NCBI RefSeq assembly: GCF_030296055.1
Contig: NZ_AP027370.1
Location: forward strand, 186,001-250,000
From: Hydrogenimonas cancrithermarum
GTDB taxonomy: Bacteria > Campylobacterota > Campylobacteria > Campylobacterales > Hydrogenimonadaceae
Length of the DNA stretch: 64,000 nt
Reading direction: 5' to 3'
Below the pieces are notes generated by a model. That model saw nothing but the letters and a program-made list of their open reading frames with translations. It made no database searches and was not told where the DNA came from. This document shows positions 50,510 through 63,680 of this stretch, piece after piece (within the stretch, counting starts at the first letter, position 1; every line of letters begins with the position of its first letter). The position numbers and the translations under genes are program-made.

Positions 50510-52855
<2,346 letters not shown>

Positions 52856-54233: not shown

Positions 54234-54827
54234 TCAGGGGATCTTGGGCGGTACGATCTCTTCACCGAGAAGGGCGTAGCTCTTGCCCACGCGTGCCACA
54301 GGTTCGAACTCGATCGTCAGTCTCTCTTTGTCGGTGATGCAGGCATCATCGACAAATTGATGCTTGATCTCGACGATCAGCGGGATCGTTTTGCTTCCTT
54401 TTAGCTCGATTTCCTGATAGAGTTCGCAGAAAAAGGCGACGGGCGAGCCCTCGACCATCGGGGGAAAACCGTCGACGAGCCGCTTCACGGGGATATCGAA
54501 ACGCTCCGCTTCGCTTGCACCGTGTGCCATCTCCTTGGAGCTGAAGTGCATCCATTCGAGATGTTCCGGTTTGACCATGCAGATCGTGCATTTGCCGGTT
54601 TTACGGATATTCGCCAATGTATCTTTGGGTGTACCGTCACTTTTGTGGCCGACCGACACGATCATCGTGGGCGGATTGGACGAAAGCCCGGTAAAGTAGC
54701 TGAAGGGTGCGACGTTGACGACGCCATCATCTTCCGTCACGACCCAGGCGATGGGGCGGGGGATGATAGTCTGGCTCATCAGTTTGTAGTTCTCGATCGA
54801 TTCGGTATCGGCATAATCGAAAATCAT
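54234..54827 (-). CDS. Flavin reductase-like FMN-binding protein
   Basis: A 197-aa split-barrel flavoprotein starting at ATG 54827 (MIFDYADTES) behind AGAGG. Family motifs: MSQTIIPRPIAWVVTEDDG, NVAPFSYFTGLSSNPPTMIV, DTLANIRKTGKCTICMV and a C-terminal acidic strand. Such proteins reduce or bind FMN and may supply reduced flavin to a partner. It is first in a minus-strand run of three and divergent from the DUF2202 gene, whose promoter repeats lie between. Confidence 0.9.
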   Translation of the reverse strand: MIFDYADTESIENYKLMSQTIIPRPIAWVVTEDDGVVNVAPFSYFTGLSSNPPTMIVSVGHKSDGTPKDTLANIRKTGKCTICMVKPEHLEWMHFSSKEMAHGASEAERFDIPVKRLVDGFPPMVEGSPVAFFCELYQEIELKGSKTIPLIVEIKHQFVDDACITDKERLTIEFEPVARVGKSYALLGEEIVPPKIP

Positions 54828-54923
54828 CTCGGCCTCTCTTTTTTCGACCATTATATTCCAACAGCCATCAAACCCTTCTGATTTATCCATATTTCGTTCA
54901 CCTTGTATCTATAAAATTCAAAT

Positions 54924-54978
54924 ATTAACACTAACTTAACACACGGCTAACGCTGAGCTAACGATCTTTCTTTACAAT
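54924..54978 (+). promoter_or_regulatory. DUF2202-gene promoter: four 11-bp tandem repeats and -10 box
   Basis: YTAAC cores begin at 54925, 54936, 54947 and 54958 (TTAACAC twice, then CTAACGC and CTAACGA), an exact 11-bp period. With the preceding G, the last unit (GCTAAC at 54957) starts 16 nt before a TACAAT -10 box (54973-54978). The unit resembles the GTTCAT sites of the three downstream promoters (shared pattern GYTMAY), so the same regulator is possible. Confidence 0.6.
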
Positions 54979-55006
54979 GCGTTCAATGCCAAAAAGGAGG
55001 AAAACG

Positions 55007-56305
55007 ATGAAGAAGAAAAGTTATGTTGGAATAGGGGCGTCTCTTGGAGCTTTGTTGCTGGTGGGATGCGGTGGCGGCTCTTCAGATACGGCATCGGAGC
55101 TCACCGGCTATGATCTAACGGTCGAAAGAGGGCCGGTATTGCACGCCTTCGTCATCGATAGCAGAGGAAAACAGGCGGTCGAGATAGGTAACGGCCATTA
55201 TCTATTTGCCGAAAATCCAGAATATCCCGTTTCGGTGTTTGGAGGTTTTATCGACCTGAACCGTGACGGAACCGTATCGGCTGGTGATATCAACAACTCT
55301 TTGATACTGAAAGCTTCCGCAGGGAACGCTGCGACACTTGTCAACACGATCGCTCTCAGGGAGGAAATTCGATCATGGTTGAAAGAGAGTTTCGGTCTGG
55401 ATGACGAGACAATCGACAGTGCGACACCTTCGACCGATAGAAGTATCGCGGCGATCAGCGACGAACTCTTCGCGTATTGCATAGAACAGCAAATCAGTGA
55501 TCCTTCTGCCTTGACATTGCAGGAGTTGGAAGCACTGCGCGACCGGATTCAAAGTCGGATAGAGAGCTATCTGGATACGACGGAATCGACTGCGGACCTC
55601 GAAATCGAGCTTGTCGAAGGGCTGGATCTTCCCCTGCTTACGGAAGAAGAGAGTGCAAGCGTCGATATTGTAGCCCAAACCGGTTACGGACATACCGATC
55701 TGAAGACAATCATCGACCAACTACCGGTCTTCGATCTGAATGACGAGCAGAAGTATGCACTGGCCTACATGTGGAACGAAGAGAAGCTGGCGAAAGATAT
55801 CTATCTGGCATTGAATGATTTGAACCCACACCAAACCCTCTACAATATCGCGACACGATCTGAAACGGAGCATGAAGCTGCCGTCGAGGCACTTGTGCAG
55901 AAATATGACATCAATATCACGAATCTCGAAAATTATGAAATCAACTACTCCGAAGAGGAGTTGAGAGCGCTTGCTGCCGGAGAGTTTGCCATTCCGGAGG
56001 TTCAAGAACTCTACAATGCGCTTTATGAAAAAGGAACCAAATCGCTTCAGGATGCGCTTAAAGTGGGATGTATGGTGGAAGTGACCGATGTCGCAGATCT
56101 GGACAAATATATCGAGACCGCAGATGGTGCCGAAGATCTTGTTCAAATCTTTACATACCTTCGCAGCGGCAGCTACAACCACTACTGGGCATTCGACAGC
56201 GCATTGAAAAGTCTGGGCGTAACGGATGGGTGCTGTTCTTTGGGTGAAACATACTGCAAAACGGAAGTTGAGTTTCCGATGAACAACAACGGTAGAGGCC
56301 ACTGA
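55007..56305 (+). CDS. DUF2202 ferritin-like lipoprotein
   Basis: A 432-aa lipoprotein from ATG 55007 (AAGGAGG upstream). The lipobox LLLVGC places the lipidated Cys at 21. Residues 22-230 form an unrecognised domain with an acidic D-x-D-rich loop (LNRDGTVSAGDINNS) resembling a calcium-binding or dockerin-like loop. The C-terminal DUF2202 domain (about 250-420) is ferritin-like, with Glu/His ligand segments NEEKLAKDIYLAL and TRSETEHEAAVEAL and later SYNHYWAFDSALK. It could bind a di-iron centre outside the membrane. It carries its own promoter repeats. Confidence 0.85.
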   Translation: MKKKSYVGIGASLGALLLVGCGGGSSDTASELTGYDLTVERGPVLHAFVIDSRGKQAVEIGNGHYLFAENPEYPVSVFGGFIDLNRDGTVSAGDINNSLILKASAGNAATLVNTIALREEIRSWLKESFGLDDETIDSATPSTDRSIAAISDELFAYCIEQQISDPSALTLQELEALRDRIQSRIESYLDTTESTADLEIELVEGLDLPLLTEEESASVDIVAQTGYGHTDLKTIIDQLPVFDLNDEQKYALAYMWNEEKLAKDIYLALNDLNPHQTLYNIATRSETEHEAAVEALVQKYDINITNLENYEINYSEEELRALAAGEFAIPEVQELYNALYEKGTKSLQDALKVGCMVEVTDVADLDKYIETADGAEDLVQIFTYLRSGSYNHYWAFDSALKSLGVTDGCCSLGETYCKTEVEFPMNNNGRGH

Positions 56306-56334
56306 AATTTATCACTCTTCATCTCTATCGTACC

Positions 56335-56367
56335 GTTCATGTTCCGTTCATGTTGAAACGCTAAAGT
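56335..56367 (+). promoter_or_regulatory. Promoter of the haem-binding gene: two 11-bp repeats and -10 box
   Basis: GTTCATGTTCC at 56335 is followed directly by GTTCATGTTGA at 56346. TAAAGT at 56362-56367 begins exactly 16 nt after the second repeat. The ATG is 23 nt further. The layout fits class II activation by an OmpR-type regulator. Confidence 0.7.
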
Positions 56368-56389
56368 AAACATAGAAAGGGGGTGCGAC

Positions 56390-56833
56390 ATGGGATGGAG
56401 AAAAAAAACACTCATTTCTCTTGTGGCACTTGGATTGGCCATACAATTCGTGCCATATGGAAAAGACCATACAAATCCGGCTGTTTTAAGCGAACCCAGG
56501 TGGGATTCGCTCAAGACGCGTGAGTTATTTATGCTATCGTGTGGTGACTGCCATTCGCATGAGACAAAATGGCCATGGTACAGCAACATCGCACCGATAT
56601 CCTGGATCGTGATGCATGATGTGGAAGAGGGACGTGAACACTTTAATGCCTCGATGTGGGGGCATCAAAAGAAAAACGAAGGGGATGAAGCGGCTAAAGA
56701 AGTCCGTAAAGGAGAAATGCCGCTTTGGCCCTATCTACTCATGCATCCAGAGGCCCGACTGAACGATAACGAGAAAAAGATATTGATCGAAGGGCTCGTA
56801 CGGACATTCGGGGAGAAACAAGAGCACGATTAG
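56390..56833 (+). CDS. Haem-binding domain protein (Haem_bd family)
   Basis: A 147-aa exported or membrane-anchored protein. An N-terminal hydrophobic segment ([18 protein letters not shown]) precedes a single haem c site [20 protein letters not shown], the signature of the PF14376 haem-binding domain. A possible axial Met is in [17 protein letters not shown]. Acts in the periplasm, probably in electron transfer or sensing. It is flanked by DUF2202 and EF-hand genes that share its promoter type. The gap 56834-56934 shows no convincing gene. Confidence 0.88.
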
Positions 56834-56934
56834 AACCTATCTCAAAAATACCTATGGCCGAAAACTTTACACAGATGTTCATTAGACGATGCAAGAGCAT
56901 CGTGGAGGAGCTTAAGTACAGAGAATGGGATCTA

Positions 56935-56967
56935 GTTCATATTGTGTTCATATTGGATCGATAGAGT
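56935..56967 (+). promoter_or_regulatory. Promoter of the EF-hand gene: two 11-bp repeats and -10 box
   Basis: GTTCATATTGT at 56935 and GTTCATATTGG at 56946 are in tandem. TAGAGT at 56962-56967 again begins 16 nt after the second repeat. The ATG at 56998 has AAGGAGG upstream. Confidence 0.7.
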
Positions 56968-56997
56968 TATCTATATCCATTCCAAAAGGAGGAAACG

Positions 56998-57501
56998 ATG
57001 AAACGATTATTGGTATTGGCACTGGTTACAGGTGCTCTTTGGGCAACCGACTTTTCGAGTATGAGTACCGAAGAGTTGATGAATATGCGCGGAACCATTC
57101 CGGCCGAAGATCGTGCGATGTTCCAGCAGGAGATGCAAAAACGGATGCAAAGCATGACGCCGCAGGAACGGCAAACATACATGAAGAAACAAAAAGCCAG
57201 GAAGCAAGCACAGGCGCCCGGATTCACCGCGTTCGATCTCGACCGTGACGGAAGGGTCAGTCGTCAGGAATTCGAAGAGACTCGAACGAAACGGATGACC
57301 GAACGTGCCGAAGAGGGAAAAATGATGAAGCATGCGGGCGATGCTCCGGCATTTGGTGACATCGATGCAAATGGGGACGGTTATATCGACCGCAACGAAT
57401 TTCAGACCCACCAACGCAATCGTATGCAGACAAAAAAACCGGGCTATGGCAATGGCATGGGACGCGGCCGGGGCATGGGAAGAGGTCGCGGCGGTTTTTA
57501 A
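56998..57501 (+). CDS. Exported EF-hand protein with RG-rich tail
   Basis: A 167-aa protein with signal peptide (MKRLLVLALVTGALWA). A helical DUF1104-like region follows (MSTEELMNMRGTIPAEDRAM). Two EF-hand loops come next, DLDRDGRVSRQEFEE (about 79-93) and DIDANGDGYIDRNEF (about 120-134), each with proper Asp/Asn/Glu calcium ligands. The tail GMGRGRGMGRGRGGF is arginine-glycine-rich. It probably acts as a periplasmic calcium or metal sensor; a role with the neighbouring two-component system is inferred. Confidence 0.82.
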   Translation: MKRLLVLALVTGALWATDFSSMSTEELMNMRGTIPAEDRAMFQQEMQKRMQSMTPQERQTYMKKQKARKQAQAPGFTAFDLDRDGRVSRQEFEETRTKRMTERAEEGKMMKHAGDAPAFGDIDANGDGYIDRNEFQTHQRNRMQTKKPGYGNGMGRGRGMGRGRGGF

Positions 57502-57505
57502 CAGT

Positions 57506-57538
57506 GTTCATGTTGCGTTCACCCCAAAAAGGTAGAAT
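57506..57538 (+). promoter_or_regulatory. Promoter of the efflux operon: two 11-bp repeats and -10 box
   Basis: GTTCATGTTGC at 57506 is followed by a weaker GTTCAC at 57517. TAGAAT at 57533-57538 starts 16 nt after the second unit. The ATG lies only 7 nt after the -10 box, so a transcript from it would begin near the start codon. Confidence 0.65.
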
Positions 57539-57544
57539 AGCGAC

Positions 57545-58792
57545 ATGAAAAAAATAACGATTCTACTTACCGTAGGGCTCGTCGGTCTGCATGCGGAGCT
57601 TTTGACGCTTGGCTCATGCATCGACAAAGCCCTGCAAACACATCCCGATGTCCGCGCTTTTATGCTCAAAGTCAAAGAACAACACGAAGGTGTAAAAGTG
57701 CAAAAAGGGGCATGGCGGCCACAGGTTTCGGCTTACGCCGAATATGATCCGCAACGCACCTATGTCATGCCCCAGAACGGGCAGTTCCATACGATCGATG
57801 ATGACGGATGGACCGCCGGTATCTCCGTAACGCAGAAGATTTACGATTTCTCCAAAACCTCCCACACCATCGAATCTTCGAAAATAAAACATGAGATTTC
57901 TACGCTTTCATTCGAAGAGGCCAAGGCGCTGATGCGTTACCGTATCCGTATCGCCTACGCACAGCTATTGGTGCAAAAAGCGGCACTGACGGCTCGTGAA
58001 AAAGACCTCGATGCGAAAAGAGCACTCTATGAACAGGCCAAAGCGCTCGTCGAACAAGGCTTGAAAACCCGGGCTGACGAGAGCCGTTTCCTCTCCGCCG
58101 TCCGTCAGGCCGAAGATGCATTGGCAGTGGCGCGTGCGGCTTACAAGAAGGCGAAAATCTCACTCGAACAGTACATCGGCGAACCGATAGCGGAGAATAC
58201 GACGTTTGAAGAGGGGATTTTGAGCGAAAAAACGGTTCCGGCCATCGTGACGGACGAGGAGACAGTGCTCGAGAACAACCTGCAGCTACAGATCGCGAAA
58301 AAGAGCGAAGATGCTTCCCGTGAACTCTACAAGTCAAAACTGGCCGAGCACTACGGATCGCTCGATGTCGTCGCGGAGGCGAGTCACTTCGATACACTCT
58401 CGCGCTACGACACCACACTGTTTGGCATCCGCTATGCCGTACCGATTTACAGCGGCGGAAGACTGAGTGCCCAGGCACAGCAGACCAAAATTTCCAAAAT
58501 GATCGCCGCCGAAGAGAAGGAGTCGAAGCGGCGTGCCATCCTCGAAGAGATCAAAGCGCTTCTGGCCGATCTCGAAGAGGCCGAGAAGCGCATCGAGGCC
58601 AGACGCTCCCAGACGGTTTCGGCCGAAGAAACCAAAGTCTTGATTGAAGCGCGCTACGAAGAAGGGCTTTCGACCTATATGGAGGTACTCGACGCCGAAG
58701 CGGTCTGGCTCGACGCCAAGCTGGGGCTGCTCGATGCCTTCTACACACGTCTCAACCGACTTTATCGACTGGAGTATCTCAATGCGAAATAA
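57545..58792 (+). CDS. TolC-family outer-membrane efflux channel
   Basis: A 415-aa outer-membrane factor with a signal peptide (MKKITILLTVGLVGLHAE). The long coiled-coil tunnel appears in two repeats (ALTAREKDLDAKRALYEQAK and LEEIKALLADLEEAEKRIEA), each followed by beta strands. A typical C-terminal half is AEETKVLIEARYEEGLSTYM. It would form the exit duct for the adaptor and ABC pump encoded downstream. No classical ribosome-binding site is close to the ATG. It overlaps the adaptor gene by 11 nt. Confidence 0.92.
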   Translation: MKKITILLTVGLVGLHAELLTLGSCIDKALQTHPDVRAFMLKVKEQHEGVKVQKGAWRPQVSAYAEYDPQRTYVMPQNGQFHTIDDDGWTAGISVTQKIYDFSKTSHTIESSKIKHEISTLSFEEAKALMRYRIRIAYAQLLVQKAALTAREKDLDAKRALYEQAKALVEQGLKTRADESRFLSAVRQAEDALAVARAAYKKAKISLEQYIGEPIAENTTFEEGILSEKTVPAIVTDEETVLENNLQLQIAKKSEDASRELYKSKLAEHYGSLDVVAEASHFDTLSRYDTTLFGIRYAVPIYSGGRLSAQAQQTKISKMIAAEEKESKRRAILEEIKALLADLEEAEKRIEARRSQTVSAEETKVLIEARYEEGLSTYMEVLDAEAVWLDAKLGLLDAFYTRLNRLYRLEYLNAK

Positions 58793-59915
58793 TTTTATGA
58801 AATGGGCCGTTATCTTTGCAGTTCTTATCGGCGGTGCCGTGATTTTTTACAACAAAGTTTATCTCCCGAAAGCGACCTATGCCTATGTAACGGCGAAAAA
58901 GGGCGATCTGAAACTGACGGTCTTCGGCATCGGTACCGTCAGCGCAAAAAACATCTACCCTGTCGGTTCCAACAGCGGCGGTAAGCTGCTGAAAGTATTC
59001 AAAGACCAGGGTGAGTGGGTTGAAAAAGGGGAAATCATCGCCACGCTTGATCCGGTCGATCTACCCGACCAGCTGGCACAGGCGGAAGCACTGCTCAAAA
59101 AAGCACGCTACGAAACCCTGGCGGCTCAAAAGGAACTTGAAGGGCTCTACGCGCAGCATGAGCTTGCGGCATTGACATTCAAACGCTACGACACGCTTTA
59201 CCGAAAAGGATATGCGGCGCAGGCGGAGTACGACAAAGCACGCACAGACCTGATATCGGTCGAAGCCCAGATAGAAGCTTCCAAAGCCCGTATCGCATCG
59301 AGCAAAGCGGAGTGTGAGCGTGCACAAAAGAGTATCGATGCACTGAAACAGAAGATCGACCGCCTTGCAATCGTTTCGCCGGTCGACGGTTACATCATCA
59401 GCAAAGATGCTGAAGCGGCTCAGACTATCGCCGCGCAACAACCGGTCGTGACGATCGTCGACACCAAAAATCTCTGGGTAAAAGCCAATGTCGACGAACG
59501 TATCAGCGGCGTGATCAAAAAGGGACAAAGGGCCGATATCGTACTGCGGTCTCAGGATGGTACCCCACTGGCAGGACGCGTGGAACGCATCGAGGCCAAA
59601 AGCGACCCTGTCACCGAAGAGCGCATCGTCGACGTGGCGTTCGACAAAGTGCCGTTCCCGTTCCATATCAACGAACAGGCGGAGGTCTCTATCGAAACCG
59701 GCCGTCTGCATAATGTGGTACTCGTTCCTCTGCATCTCATCCAACGTGGCGGTGTCTGGGTCTACAATGACGGTGAAGCTCACTTCAAAAAGGTTGAAAT
59801 CCTCGGTAAAAACGACAAAGAAGCGGCCGTCGATGGGCTCACTACAAATGAGAAGATCCTCGTTCCGGACAGTCATAAAAAACCGCTTTTTGACGGGGTA
59901 GACATACACATATGA
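58782..59915 (+). CDS. Membrane-fusion (HlyD/MacA-type) periplasmic adaptor
   Basis: A 377-aa adaptor starting at ATG 58782 behind GGAG; the upstream extension overlaps the TolC-family gene and is discarded. One N-terminal membrane helix (WAVIFAVLIGGAVIFY) precedes a lipoyl half (VFKDQGEWVEKGEIIATLD), a coiled coil of about 95 residues, the second lipoyl half (RLAIVSPVDGYIISKDAEAA) and a beta-barrel domain. It should connect the FtsX-type pump with TolC. It overlaps the next gene by 4 nt. Confidence 0.92.
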   Translation: MRNNFMKWAVIFAVLIGGAVIFYNKVYLPKATYAYVTAKKGDLKLTVFGIGTVSAKNIYPVGSNSGGKLLKVFKDQGEWVEKGEIIATLDPVDLPDQLAQAEALLKKARYETLAAQKELEGLYAQHELAALTFKRYDTLYRKGYAAQAEYDKARTDLISVEAQIEASKARIASSKAECERAQKSIDALKQKIDRLAIVSPVDGYIISKDAEAAQTIAAQQPVVTIVDTKNLWVKANVDERISGVIKKGQRADIVLRSQDGTPLAGRVERIEAKSDPVTEERIVDVAFDKVPFPFHINEQAEVSIETGRLHNVVLVPLHLIQRGGVWVYNDGEAHFKKVEILGKNDKEAAVDGLTTNEKILVPDSHKKPLFDGVDIHI

Positions 59916-61063
59916 TCAATCTTGCCTATAAAGATATCACCCATTCGTTTGTCAAATTCATCGTCACGGCGATGGGTGTCGGAATGCTGCTTGGCATCGT
60001 GCTTATTATGATGGGGGTCTACCGTGGTATGGTAACCGATGCCCAGGTGATGCTGGATGATATCGGTGCCGATTTGTGGATCGTACAGGAAGATACGCTT
60101 GGACCCTTTGCAGAGAGCTCCCGTATCCATGAAGATCTTAAAAACACGCTGCGCGTAAATCCCGACATCGACAAAAGTGCGGCACTCGCCTTTTTGAATC
60201 TTCAAGTCAAAACCCCCGAAGGTGTGATGAGACGGGTCTACAGCGTCGGTTACGATCCGCACGGCGATATTTCTGCTATCAACCCCAAACGGCTCGTCGA
60301 CGGCAGGGCGCTCGAGAAGAGCCACTACGAAATCGTCGTCTCCAAAAAGCTCGGCTTTTCATTGAATGACAAGATCAAACTGGGTCGGAACATCTACACG
60401 GTGGTCGGCATCACCGAAGGAGCCGTCTCTTCCGGCGGCGACCCCGTCATCTACGTCAGTCTGAAGGATGCGCAGGAGCTGCAGTTTCTCTACTCCAACG
60501 CACGCATCCGAAACGACCGGGCGAGGGGTATGAAGGTCGATGCCGACAACCACCTCGTCAATGCCGTCGTCGCGACGCTAAAAGGCGGAAGCGATCCTGA
60601 CGATGTGGCAAAAACGATCCGCCGATGGAAACATCTGAGCGTCTATACGGCCGAGCAGCAGCGCAATATTCTGACCAAAAACGTCATCGAGACAGCAAGC
60701 AAACAGATCGGCATGTTTACCGTCATTCTCGTCGGCGTCTCGAGCATCATCATCGCCCTGATCATCTATACGATGACGCTGGAGAAGATCAAGGAAATCT
60801 CCATTATGAAACTGGTCGGACTGCCCAATTTCATGATTACGAAGATGATTATGCAAGAGACTCTAACGCTGGGTGTGCTCGCCTTTATCTTCGGCAACCT
60901 CTTCGCGCATGCCATCTGGGACAAATTCCCAAAGCGGGTCGTGCTGCAGATTCCGGATGCGTGGGCACTCTTCGGCATCATTATCGTCGCTTCGATTCTG
61001 GCGAGCCTCTTTGGGGTCTACAAAGCGATCAAAGCCGATCCACGCGCGGCGATAGGAGGGTAG
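59912..61063 (+). CDS. FtsX/MacB-type ABC transporter permease
   Basis: A 383-aa membrane protein with the type VII ABC layout. One N-terminal helix (FIVTAMGVGMLLGIVLIMMG) is followed by a periplasmic domain of about 220 residues. Three C-terminal helices come next (FTVILVGVSSIIIALIIYTM, ETLTLGVLAFIFGNLFAHAI, LFGIIIVASILASLFGVYKA). Such mechanotransmission pumps push substrates from the periplasm through TolC. Toxin, peptide, lipoprotein or metal-complex substrates are all possible. Confidence 0.92.
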   Translation: MINLAYKDITHSFVKFIVTAMGVGMLLGIVLIMMGVYRGMVTDAQVMLDDIGADLWIVQEDTLGPFAESSRIHEDLKNTLRVNPDIDKSAALAFLNLQVKTPEGVMRRVYSVGYDPHGDISAINPKRLVDGRALEKSHYEIVVSKKLGFSLNDKIKLGRNIYTVVGITEGAVSSGGDPVIYVSLKDAQELQFLYSNARIRNDRARGMKVDADNHLVNAVVATLKGGSDPDDVAKTIRRWKHLSVYTAEQQRNILTKNVIETASKQIGMFTVILVGVSSIIIALIIYTMTLEKIKEISIMKLVGLPNFMITKMIMQETLTLGVLAFIFGNLFAHAIWDKFPKRVVLQIPDAWALFGIIIVASILASLFGVYKAIKADPRAAIGG

Positions 61064-61111
61064 TCGAGTGAATAGTGAAAAATTAAAAGTTAAAAATTAT
61101 TGGATGTTCAG

Positions 61112-61825
61112 ATGAGTGACGTAGGTATCAAAGTCGAAAACCTGACCAAAAATTTCGGATCGGGCGACAGCGAAGTCAGGGTGCTTGAAAATGCGTCGCT
61201 CGAAGTGAAGAAAGGGGAATTCGCTGCACTGGTCGCTCCCAGTGGTGCAGGCAAAACGACACTGCTGATGATGCTCGGCTGCGTCACGAAACCAACATCG
61301 GGAAAGATCTGGCTGGGTGATGAACTGGTCTGGGACGAGAACCACTGGAGTATTCCCGATACCAGGCGCATCCGTCGTGAAAAGATCGGCTTTATCTTTC
61401 AGGCCCACTACCTTATCCCTTTTTTGAATGTCATCGAGAATGTCAAGCTGATTCCGCTTACCAACGGCTGGCCCGCCGAAAAGGCGGAGAAGAAGGCGAT
61501 GGAACTGCTGGATTATTTCGATGTGGCGGACAAACGTGACGCCATGCCGTCGCAGCTCTCCGGCGGCCAGAATCAGCGGGTGGCGATCGCCCGGGCACTT
61601 TCGAACGAACCGGAGATCATCCTCGCCGACGAACCGACGGCGGCTCTGGATATGCAGCGCGCCGTCAGTGTCGTCAAGATGCTGCGCGAAATCGCCCTCG
61701 AGCGGAATGTCGCCATCATCATGGTCACCCACGACGAACGGCTGCTTCCTTATTGCGATAAAATACTTTCGATAGAGAACCGGAAAGTGGTCACGACAAC
61801 CCAGGATGCCAAGAAGATTATATGA
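61112..61825 (+). CDS. ABC transporter ATP-binding protein (LolD/MacB-type)
   Basis: A 237-aa ATPase from ATG 61112. Walker A is APSGAGKTTLLMML, the signature is LSGGQNQRVAIARAL, Walker B IILADEPTAALD, and the switch His is in MVTHDERLL. It is a free-standing partner for the permease upstream. The 48-nt gap between the two is AT-rich with A/T-run repeats, unlike the overlaps elsewhere in this operon. Its stop overlaps the response-regulator start. Confidence 0.93.
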   Translation: MSDVGIKVENLTKNFGSGDSEVRVLENASLEVKKGEFAALVAPSGAGKTTLLMMLGCVTKPTSGKIWLGDELVWDENHWSIPDTRRIRREKIGFIFQAHYLIPFLNVIENVKLIPLTNGWPAEKAEKKAMELLDYFDVADKRDAMPSQLSGGQNQRVAIARALSNEPEIILADEPTAALDMQRAVSVVKMLREIALERNVAIIMVTHDERLLPYCDKILSIENRKVVTTTQDAKKII

Positions 61826-62508
61826 AACCGAAAATATTCCTGCTTGAAGACGATATCGAATTGAACGACACGGTCGCACAATTTCTTCGCCATAACGATT
61901 TCGAAATCGTGCAAAGTTTCGATGCAGAAGATGCGAAAGTAAAAATCTTCGAAACACACTTCGATCTCTGGCTAATGGATGTGAAAGTACCGTTTCAAAG
62001 CGGTATCGGCCTCCTGAGCGAACTGCGCCGTAGCGGGAACGATACACCTGCCATTATCATCACATCGCTTCATGGTGTCGATGACGCCACACGCGGTTTC
62101 GATGCCGGATGCGACGACTATATCCGAAAACCGTTCGCGCTGAAAGAGCTGCTCGCACGTATCGAAGCGGTGATCAAACGCCGCTACAAAAGCAGCGACA
62201 ATTTGATCAAGATCGATGAAAACCGTATATTCGACGCTTTGAATTTCAGACTTACAGTCGATGGAGAGAAGGTGGCTCTTAAACCGAAAGAGGCCAAACT
62301 TCTGGCTCTTTTTCTCCAAAACCCTAACAAAACAGTGACGAAAGAGGAGATTTTCGATCACCTTTGGGATTACGGTGAAACACCCAACGAAGGAAGTTTG
62401 CGTACTTTCGTCAAAGTCTTGCGTAAACATCTTGGAAAAGATCGTATCGAGACTGTCAAAGAGGTGGGTTATCGATTCAATGACCGAAATATGGGGGAGT
62501 TTCTTTGA
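61822..62508 (+). CDS. OmpR/PhoB-family response regulator
   Basis: A 228-aa transcription factor. The receiver domain (1-115) has acidic pocket Asp10 and Asp11, phospho-acceptor Asp53 (LWLMDVKVP), Thr81 and Lys103 (IRKPFALKELL). The winged-helix domain (about 130-225) ends with the typical KVLRKHLGKDRIETVKEVGY and wing. Proteins of this family bind tandem direct repeats about 11 bp apart and activate from sites overlapping -35, exactly the layout seen at four promoters nearby. It is coupled to the kinase gene downstream. Confidence 0.95.
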   Translation: MKPKIFLLEDDIELNDTVAQFLRHNDFEIVQSFDAEDAKVKIFETHFDLWLMDVKVPFQSGIGLLSELRRSGNDTPAIIITSLHGVDDATRGFDAGCDDYIRKPFALKELLARIEAVIKRRYKSSDNLIKIDENRIFDALNFRLTVDGEKVALKPKEAKLLALFLQNPNKTVTKEEIFDHLWDYGETPNEGSLRTFVKVLRKHLGKDRIETVKEVGYRFNDRNMGEFL

Positions 62509-63680
62509 GATACCCAATGTTTGAAAGTGAAAAAAAGAGTCTTTCCCGGTTTCTCGTCATTTATATCGTCTCCACGCTGCTTCTCATCGCCGTCGGATCG
62601 GTCATCTTTTATCGGTACTCTTTTCACCGTATCATCGACCATCAAAATGAAACCCTTAAAATCAAAACTGCGCTCATCCGATCAAAACTGCATGATCTGC
62701 ACACTTCCACGGAAACGAAACTGCTCTATCCTGTCATCGAGGGGATCCATACCGCACTCTACGACGTCGATCGCAACTATCTGATCGGAGATTTCAAACC
62801 GGAAAAAATCGAATGGCATAACGATTTTTGGCAGACGGGTGACAAGCTCTACCACCGTTTCGAGATGCATCCTTACTATCTCGGTACGGCGACAGTCGTA
62901 TCGGCGGCGCCGATCGATGAAGCACCGATTCATGCACTACAGACCAAAATGGCGATCGCTTTCGTTCTCGCTACGCTTTTTGTAGCACTCATCGCCAGGT
63001 GGCTGGGACGCCTCTTTCTGGCACCTGTCCATCAGTCCATGCAGCTGCTCGATCGTTTCATCAAAGATACCACCCACGAACTCAACACCCCCATCAGCAC
63101 CATTTTGACCAATATCGAACTCTTCAAAAGTCTCCATCCCCAGCTGCAGAAAAGTGAAGAACTTCGGCGGATCGAGATCGCTTCGGGACGTCTGAGTCGA
63201 ATCTACGACGATCTGGCCTATCTGCAACTCAACCACCAACGCCACCGGCGTATCGAACCGATCGACTTCTCCGCTCTTTTAAAAGAGCGTCTTGCCTACT
63301 TCGCACCGATGATGGAACGAAGAGGGCTGCAACTCGAAAGCGAGCTTGTGGATCATCTCGTTCGGCAAATGGATAGGGAGGATGCCGCAAAACTCATCGA
63401 CAACCTTCTCTCCAATGCCGTCAAATATACACAGCCGGGCGGTAGTATTCGTGTAAAACTCGACATAAAAGAGCTGTCGATCGAAGATAGCGGTATCGGA
63501 ATGGACGAGAAGGTCAAATCACGGGTAACCGACCGTTTTTTCAGAGCCGATCGGAGTGAGGGAGGGTTCGGTCTGGGACTCAATATCGTCAAAGAGATCG
63601 TCGATTTCTACGGGTTGCGACTCGACATCGAAAGTAAAAAAGGGGTGGGTACGAAAGTGAGGGTTTCATGGGAAAAGTAG
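62505..63680 (+). CDS. Membrane sensor histidine kinase
   Basis: A 391-aa kinase. I use the TTG start at 62505, which has GGGGGAG six nt upstream and overlaps the regulator stop; ATG 62517 is the alternative. Two membrane helices (about 16-36 and 149-166) enclose a periplasmic sensor of about 110 residues with several His and Trp (EWHNDFWQTG, YHRFEMHPYYLG). Phospho-acceptor His191 is in TTHELNTPIST, the N-box is LIDNLLSNAVKYT, and G-boxes are EDSGIGMDE and GFGLGLNIVKEI. There is no HAMP domain. Signal unknown; a metal is conceivable. Confidence 0.94.
   Translation: MRYPMFESEKKSLSRFLVIYIVSTLLLIAVGSVIFYRYSFHRIIDHQNETLKIKTALIRSKLHDLHTSTETKLLYPVIEGIHTALYDVDRNYLIGDFKPEKIEWHNDFWQTGDKLYHRFEMHPYYLGTATVVSAAPIDEAPIHALQTKMAIAFVLATLFVALIARWLGRLFLAPVHQSMQLLDRFIKDTTHELNTPISTILTNIELFKSLHPQLQKSEELRRIEIASGRLSRIYDDLAYLQLNHQRHRRIEPIDFSALLKERLAYFAPMMERRGLQLESELVDHLVRQMDREDAAKLIDNLLSNAVKYTQPGGSIRVKLDIKELSIEDSGIGMDEKVKSRVTDRFFRADRSEGGFGLGLNIVKEIVDFYGLRLDIESKKGVGTKVRVSWEK

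Follow-up and report, generated by a model that had tools for sequence, protein, structure and literature searches.

The DccRS system is best known as a factor in colonisation by Campylobacter jejuni. At the pho box of PhoB and at the box of PmrA/BasR, two direct half-sites, separated by one turn, cover the -35 region, and the -10 element follows at a fixed distance. In C. jejuni, DccRS controls dccR itself and six genes for periplasmic or membrane proteins (PMC7118207), and both MacABC (Cj0606-Cj0608) and Cj0200c belong to the DccRS regulon or are linked to it (PMC11365321). We describe a tandem box of this type in Hydrogenimonas cancrithermarum, in a window of 64,000 nucleotides (NCBI RefSeq assembly GCF_030296055.1, contig NZ_AP027370.1, positions 186,001 to 250,000). 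Paired RTTCAY half-sites precede genes for a Haem-binding-domain (Haem_bd) protein, an EF-hand/DUF1104 protein, a DUF2202 lipoprotein and a TolC-MacAB pump, and the pump operon ends with the genes of a response regulator and its partner histidine kinase. We consider it likely that a DccR-family response regulator binds these boxes and heads a self-activating envelope regulon. Position numbers without a prefix refer to the window; G000:C1 denotes the genome from which it comes (2.38 Mb).

A tandem box at three promoters

Inspection of the sequence gave one consensus, RTTCAY-N5-RTTCAY-N10-TANNNT, common to the promoters of the Haem_bd, EF-hand/DUF1104 and tolC genes:

56335..56367, + strand: box and -10 element of the Haem_bd gene, GTTCAT-GTTCC-GTTCAT-N10-TAAAGT; units at 56335/56346, -10 at 56362
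56935..56967, + strand: box and -10 element of the EF-hand gene, GTTCAT-ATTGT-GTTCAT-N10-TAGAGT; units at 56935/56946, -10 at 56962
57506..57538, + strand: box and -10 element of the tolC operon, GTTCAT-GTTGC-GTTCAC-N10-TAGAAT; units at 57506/57517, -10 at 57533

A preliminary description of this DNA had reported the unit, core and -10 coordinates, together with spacings of 11 base pairs (bp) and 16 nucleotides (nt), and all of them are present in the sequence. In each of the three promoters the -10 element starts 16 nt past the start of the second unit, which puts the two half-sites near positions -39 and -28, across the -35 region. The box lies 55 nt (Haem_bd), 63 nt (EF-hand/DUF1104) or 39 nt (tolC) from the start codon. 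Tandem direct half-sites about one turn apart, at a fixed distance from the -10 element, are the arrangement of an OmpR/PhoB-type activator box; this geometry, which had been recognised earlier, also holds in loci collected by homology to the regulator.

An ordinary -35/-10 promoter, including a -35 hexamer, was looked for at the box promoters and was not found, so these promoters look activator-dependent. The half-sites overlap the -35 position, which would also suit a repressor that blocks RNA polymerase until the kinase is switched; the missing -35 hexamer speaks against such a repressor, as does the finding that C. jejuni DccR enhances transcription (PMC9449129), and we regard repression as improbable.

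Evidence against a chance origin

The exact pair GTTCAY-N5-GTTCAY has four matches in the whole genome, and three of the four lie in this locus. In a genome-wide motif search, of the kind that the preliminary description proposed, unit pairs with a -10 element, at no more than one mismatch, occur at 9 sites versus 1 for a reversed-pattern control, and among relatives the tolC box recurs in eight genomes of the genus. Within 3.3 kb of the window (54300-57600), the full architecture is seen three times, against a mean of 0.0003 and a maximum of 1 in 3000 dinucleotide shuffles. We also collected 259 kb of loci solely by homology to the regulator and not by motif, the window stretch included. There, RTTCAY pairs at 11 bp number 12 against 1.2 expected, no other spacing between 6 and 30 bp yields more than 2, and TANNNT stands at an identical offset (27) in 7 of the 12 pairs.

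A search of the window at two mismatches found the box pattern at chance level, so the signal resides in near-exact sites. That result is what favours reading the boxes as chance, or as a general effect of promoter composition, with no regulatory meaning; the shuffle, reversed-pattern and spacing controls contradict it, as does conservation in eight genomes, and we give it almost no credence. Across 150 genomes of the order, the exact pattern is matched in 37, usually at one site each, and not clearly more often than the reversed control; it is informative only in combination with the -10 element and the regulator.

Three genome matches were discarded. One is the exact site at G000:C1:2058308 (GTTCACGCTACGTTCAC), where the -10 element is off register and the sequence forms part of a longer local repeat; the others are the one-mismatch sites at G000:C1:1696116 and G000:C1:1982606, which have neither an envelope gene nor a ribosome-binding site and look like chance matches.

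The pump operon and its DccR-type regulator

The genes behind the three boxes are as follows:

56390..56833, + strand: Haem-binding-domain (CxxCH) protein gene (PF14376, E=1.1e-37)
56998..57501, + strand: EF-hand/DUF1104 periplasmic protein gene (PF13202, PF06518)
57545..58792, + strand: gene for a TolC-type outer membrane channel, at the head of the operon (PF02321, E=2e-50)
58791..59915, + strand: MacA-like adaptor gene (PF16576; TIGR01730 above cut-off)
59912..61063, + strand: MacB/FtsX-type permease gene (PF02687, PF12704)
61100..61825, + strand: ABC ATPase gene of the pump (PF00005)
61822..62508, + strand: OmpR/PhoB-type response regulator gene, DccR family (PF00072 and PF00486; in a clade with C. 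jejuni DccR)
62505..63680, + strand: partner histidine kinase gene (HisKA and HATPase_c; stays beside the regulator gene in relatives)

From tolC to the kinase gene, six neighbours on one strand overlap or lie no more than about 36 nt apart, and because of this tight packing they are most simply read as a single operon, tolC-macA-permease-ATPase-regulator-kinase. The response regulator at 61822 is indeed encoded in an operon behind a box, that of tolC, as had been pointed out before.

In a maximum-likelihood tree, this regulator and C. jejuni DccR share one clade (33 members, support 97/96). The C. jejuni protein in question is encoded between a hemerythrin-like gene and groEL, and from this gene order we take it to be DccR (Cj1223c). 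The window regulator matches it at 194 bits, and the next C. jejuni regulator at 90. The recognition helices are similar: SLRTFVKVLRK in the window regulator and SLRAYVKNLRK in DccR. A search of the C. jejuni genome by motif only turned up TTCAY-N6-TTCAY-N10-TANNNT at four genes, 59-66 nt upstream in each case: macA, two that are PepSY-like and one that is Cj0200c-like. The box thus stands at promoters of DccR-type targets in the C. jejuni genome as at the window promoters, and the target classes here, MacABC and periplasmic or membrane proteins, are those of the DccRS regulon. That a box derived from the window agrees with a regulon published independently is the best support for the mechanism proposed below. 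The earlier suggestion of an undescribed system needs correction: since the regulator falls in the DccR clade, and a DccRS regulon that includes MacABC and periplasmic proteins has been published for C. jejuni, the system is not wholly undescribed.

Proposed mechanism

We infer that the 61822 regulator binds the boxes and that it activates and does not repress; the nature of the signal is inferred too. A phosphorylated dimer of the DccR family would bind two RTTCAY half-sites one helical turn apart, and the bound half-sites would replace the missing -35 element and recruit RNA polymerase. Its targets would be the DUF2202, Haem_bd, DUF1104/EF-hand and TolC-MacAB pump genes. As the pump operon ends with the genes for the regulator and the kinase, positive feedback is expected, and the circuit would activate itself. 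The kinase would sense the signal, probably envelope or growth-phase stress; for C. jejuni, data on phosphorylation by the cognate kinase and on activation in stationary phase are summarised in PMC9449129.

Several observations weigh against this proposal. The best match of DccR in this genome is not the window regulator (44%) but a paralogue (48%) at G000:C1:1912872, so one-to-one orthology with DccR fails. The window kinase matches DccS at about 35%, in the catalytic core only. No such box was found directly upstream of C. jejuni dccR, and autoregulation of this form is therefore not conserved there. Finally, in three genomes of the same genus (G040, G152 and G153), RTTCAC boxes precede genes for glycine-zipper proteins where a close copy of the window regulator is lacking; because the boxes persist there, the paralogue may read some or all of them.

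The paralogous DccR-type regulator (G000:C1:1912872-1913528) is 47% identical to the window regulator, and a copy about 44-48% identical to the latter is listed for nearly every genome of the genus. It is conceivable that the boxes are read mainly by this paralogue, with the local regulator confined to a modulating part or to different targets. Its standing as the best match of DccR, the presence of such a copy in nearly every genus genome, the boxes in G040, G152 and G153, and a similar recognition helix (SALRTYIKKLRK) all fit this reading. However, the tolC, Haem_bd and DUF2202 boxes accompany the operon of the window-type regulator, and in loci collected by way of the window-type clade the 11-bp pairs stand close to the regulator genes. 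We consider such a division of roles unlikely, though worth keeping in mind; the conserved paralogue probably shares part of the box repertoire.

The genes of the paralogue and its kinase (G000:C1:1909500-1917500) are grouped with genes for a thioredoxin-like, a small DUF1104-like and a CxxCH protein. The DUF1104 likeness of the small protein was judged by eye; it has no Pfam match.

Conservation and further sites

Binding by a regulator of the DccR family is also consistent with how the sites are distributed. In the eight genus genomes, the tolC box lies about 39-40 nt from the start codon, with half-sites almost invariant and 5-nt and 10-nt spacers that vary. The Haem_bd box has equivalents in G054, G140 and G093. 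Elsewhere in the Campylobacterota, genes of the DUF2202, Haem_bd and EF-hand types again neighbour the regulator/kinase pair, and boxes of the same geometry precede DUF2202 genes (loci L008, L012, L014 and L040), a Haem_bd gene (L019) and genes for CxxCH cytochrome-like proteins (L010, L019 and L133). In G105, the partner kinase gene (its product 58% identical to the window kinase) has a box of its own, and close to it, on the opposite strand, lies a cytochrome gene with a box.

The window's genome holds further RTTCAY sites, at G000:C1:909814 (before a gene for a 17-kDa glycine-zipper protein), G000:C1:749276 (OmpA-like glycine-zipper lipoprotein) and G000:C1:680239 (LTxEQ-repeat protein), each 60-63 nt upstream of an ATG. 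The LTxEQ-repeat protein has no Pfam match above threshold, and a relative in G080 matches LTXXQ weakly. The preliminary description had spoken of a local regulon of envelope proteins; its envelope character stands, also in the loci collected solely by homology to the regulator, and these three boxes show that it is not purely local.

Two side observations concern neighbouring genes. In a near relative (contig G129:C49), whose tolC is 94% identical, a flavin reductase gene directly adjoins tolC, with no DUF2202, Haem_bd or EF-hand gene in between, and the tolC box is kept. In the window, a gene for the catalase-peroxidase KatG (50630-52855, above the NCBIfam cut-off) lies a few kb upstream of the regulon, and a position weight matrix scan of the window found no RTTCAY box of comparable score before it.

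Two promoters at the DUF2202 gene

The DUF2202 gene has two promoters, one of each of two motif classes:

55007..56305, + strand: DUF2202 lipoprotein gene (PF09968, E=4e-26)
54885..54917, + strand: P1, RTTCAY class, ATCCAT-ATTTC-GTTCAC-CTTGTATCTA-TAAAAT
54925..54978, + strand: P2, YTAAC array, cores at 54925/36/47/58; GCTAAC at 54946/54957; TACAAT -10 at 54973

Its protein is 67-69% identical to counterparts in the clusters of relatives; the literature searched yielded no mention of DUF2202. The P1 box has the fourth best matrix score in the window (19.4) and is also among the one-mismatch genome matches. Both promoters are kept upstream of DUF2202 in G093, G054 and G140, and G105 retains only the YTAAC promoter.

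The preliminary description had treated P2 as a fourth promoter with the same motif and had placed DUF2202 in the regulon on that account. The gene does belong to the set, by way of P1 (54885-54917), which had gone unlisted, and not by way of the YTAAC array, whose GCTAAC units are of a different class: genome-wide, YTAAC tandem boxes occur at 11 sites versus 2 in the control. It could still be that the 61822 regulator has a single local regulon that takes in all four promoters, and that the units at DUF2202 have diverged. The 11-bp spacing and the 16-nt distance to the -10 element are alike at all four, and OmpR-type regulators are established to tolerate degenerate half-sites. YTAAC boxes nonetheless make up a class of their own before TonB copper-receptor-like, NosL-domain and other genes, they occur near a different regulator clade, and DUF2202 has a separate RTTCAY box, with both promoters kept in relatives and the YTAAC one by itself in G105. 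One regulon of four promoters is accordingly quite improbable, and we rejected the YTAAC array as a diverged RTTCAY box, in view of its genome-wide class, its neighbourhood to another regulator clade and its separate conservation.

YTAAC units pair at 11 bp near relatives of another regulator (G000:C1:912456-913076), and further boxes lie at G000:C1:1116063, 1227080, 726488, 742525 and 680833. The genes behind them include a TonB copper-receptor-like gene (two identical copies, below the family cut-off), a NosL-domain gene, and genes for a NosZ-like protein (named from sequence only) and a membrane-anchored CxxC protein. The sites may mark a regulon related to copper and controlled by another OmpR-type regulator, and the YTAAC array of DUF2202 is probably served by a different OmpR-type regulator than the RTTCAY boxes. 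Because RTTCAY and YTAAC promoters are both conserved, DUF2202 looks, from these motifs, like an integration point of two regulators.

Another YTAAC tandem box, with a TAAAAT -10 element (G000:C1:1379077-1379108; locus L149, 2610, - strand), is followed about 73 nt further on by a gene with a product that reads as DnaA. Tandem repeats of the TGCAC type with an 11-bp period, and a -10 element at about the same distance, occur near other OmpR-type regulators of the genome (loci L139, at 148, - strand, and L140, at 325, + strand). Each OmpR-type regulator may have its own half-site within a shared architecture.

Significance

A DccR box and clade in environmental, non-pathogenic relatives, together with MacAB-TolC, DUF2202 and cytochrome-like proteins, suggest an old role in envelope maintenance. 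We offer tentatively a broader reading, in which the DccR box would mark an ancient Campylobacterota envelope-stress regulon that does the job of Cpx/Bae where these are absent. Some genera would use two DccR-type regulators that are partly redundant, and the core effectors would be DUF2202, Haem_bd and small c-type cytochrome proteins, tying envelope repair to the haem or redox state of the periplasm. With so precise a motif, the regulon can be traced through any genome of the Campylobacterota, and hypotheses on what DUF2202 and DUF1104 do become testable.

Comparison with known systems

Relatives of the 61822 regulator with solved structures include PmrA/BasR and PhoB, and its best NCBIfam scores are to PmrA and PhoB, both below cut-off. 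The tandem boxes of these regulators have the same geometry; here the half-site is RTTCAY, and the regulon content and the regulator clade are different. The Cpx and Bae systems have similar envelope targets, including an efflux pump and a protein with LTxEQ repeats (Spy-like, a weak match). The regulator itself scores 92 bits against a cut-off of 380 for the BaeR model, CpxR is not among its best 25 matches, and no CpxA/BaeS-type match above cut-off was found for the kinase.

DccRS of C. jejuni (Cj1223c-Cj1222c) is alike in regulator clade, box, -10 spacing and targets (MacABC and small periplasmic proteins). It differs in layout: here the regulator and kinase genes lie inside the pump operon, whereas in C. 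jejuni the pair is flanked by a hemerythrin-like gene and groEL. The targets here are DUF2202, Haem_bd, EF-hand and glycine-zipper proteins, and the genome has two DccR-type regulators. In the literature searched, the phylum-wide spread and the DUF2202, cytochrome and Haem_bd targets appear undescribed. The locus holds a real, conserved envelope regulon, probably of the DccR family, of a known type and not a new kind of system.

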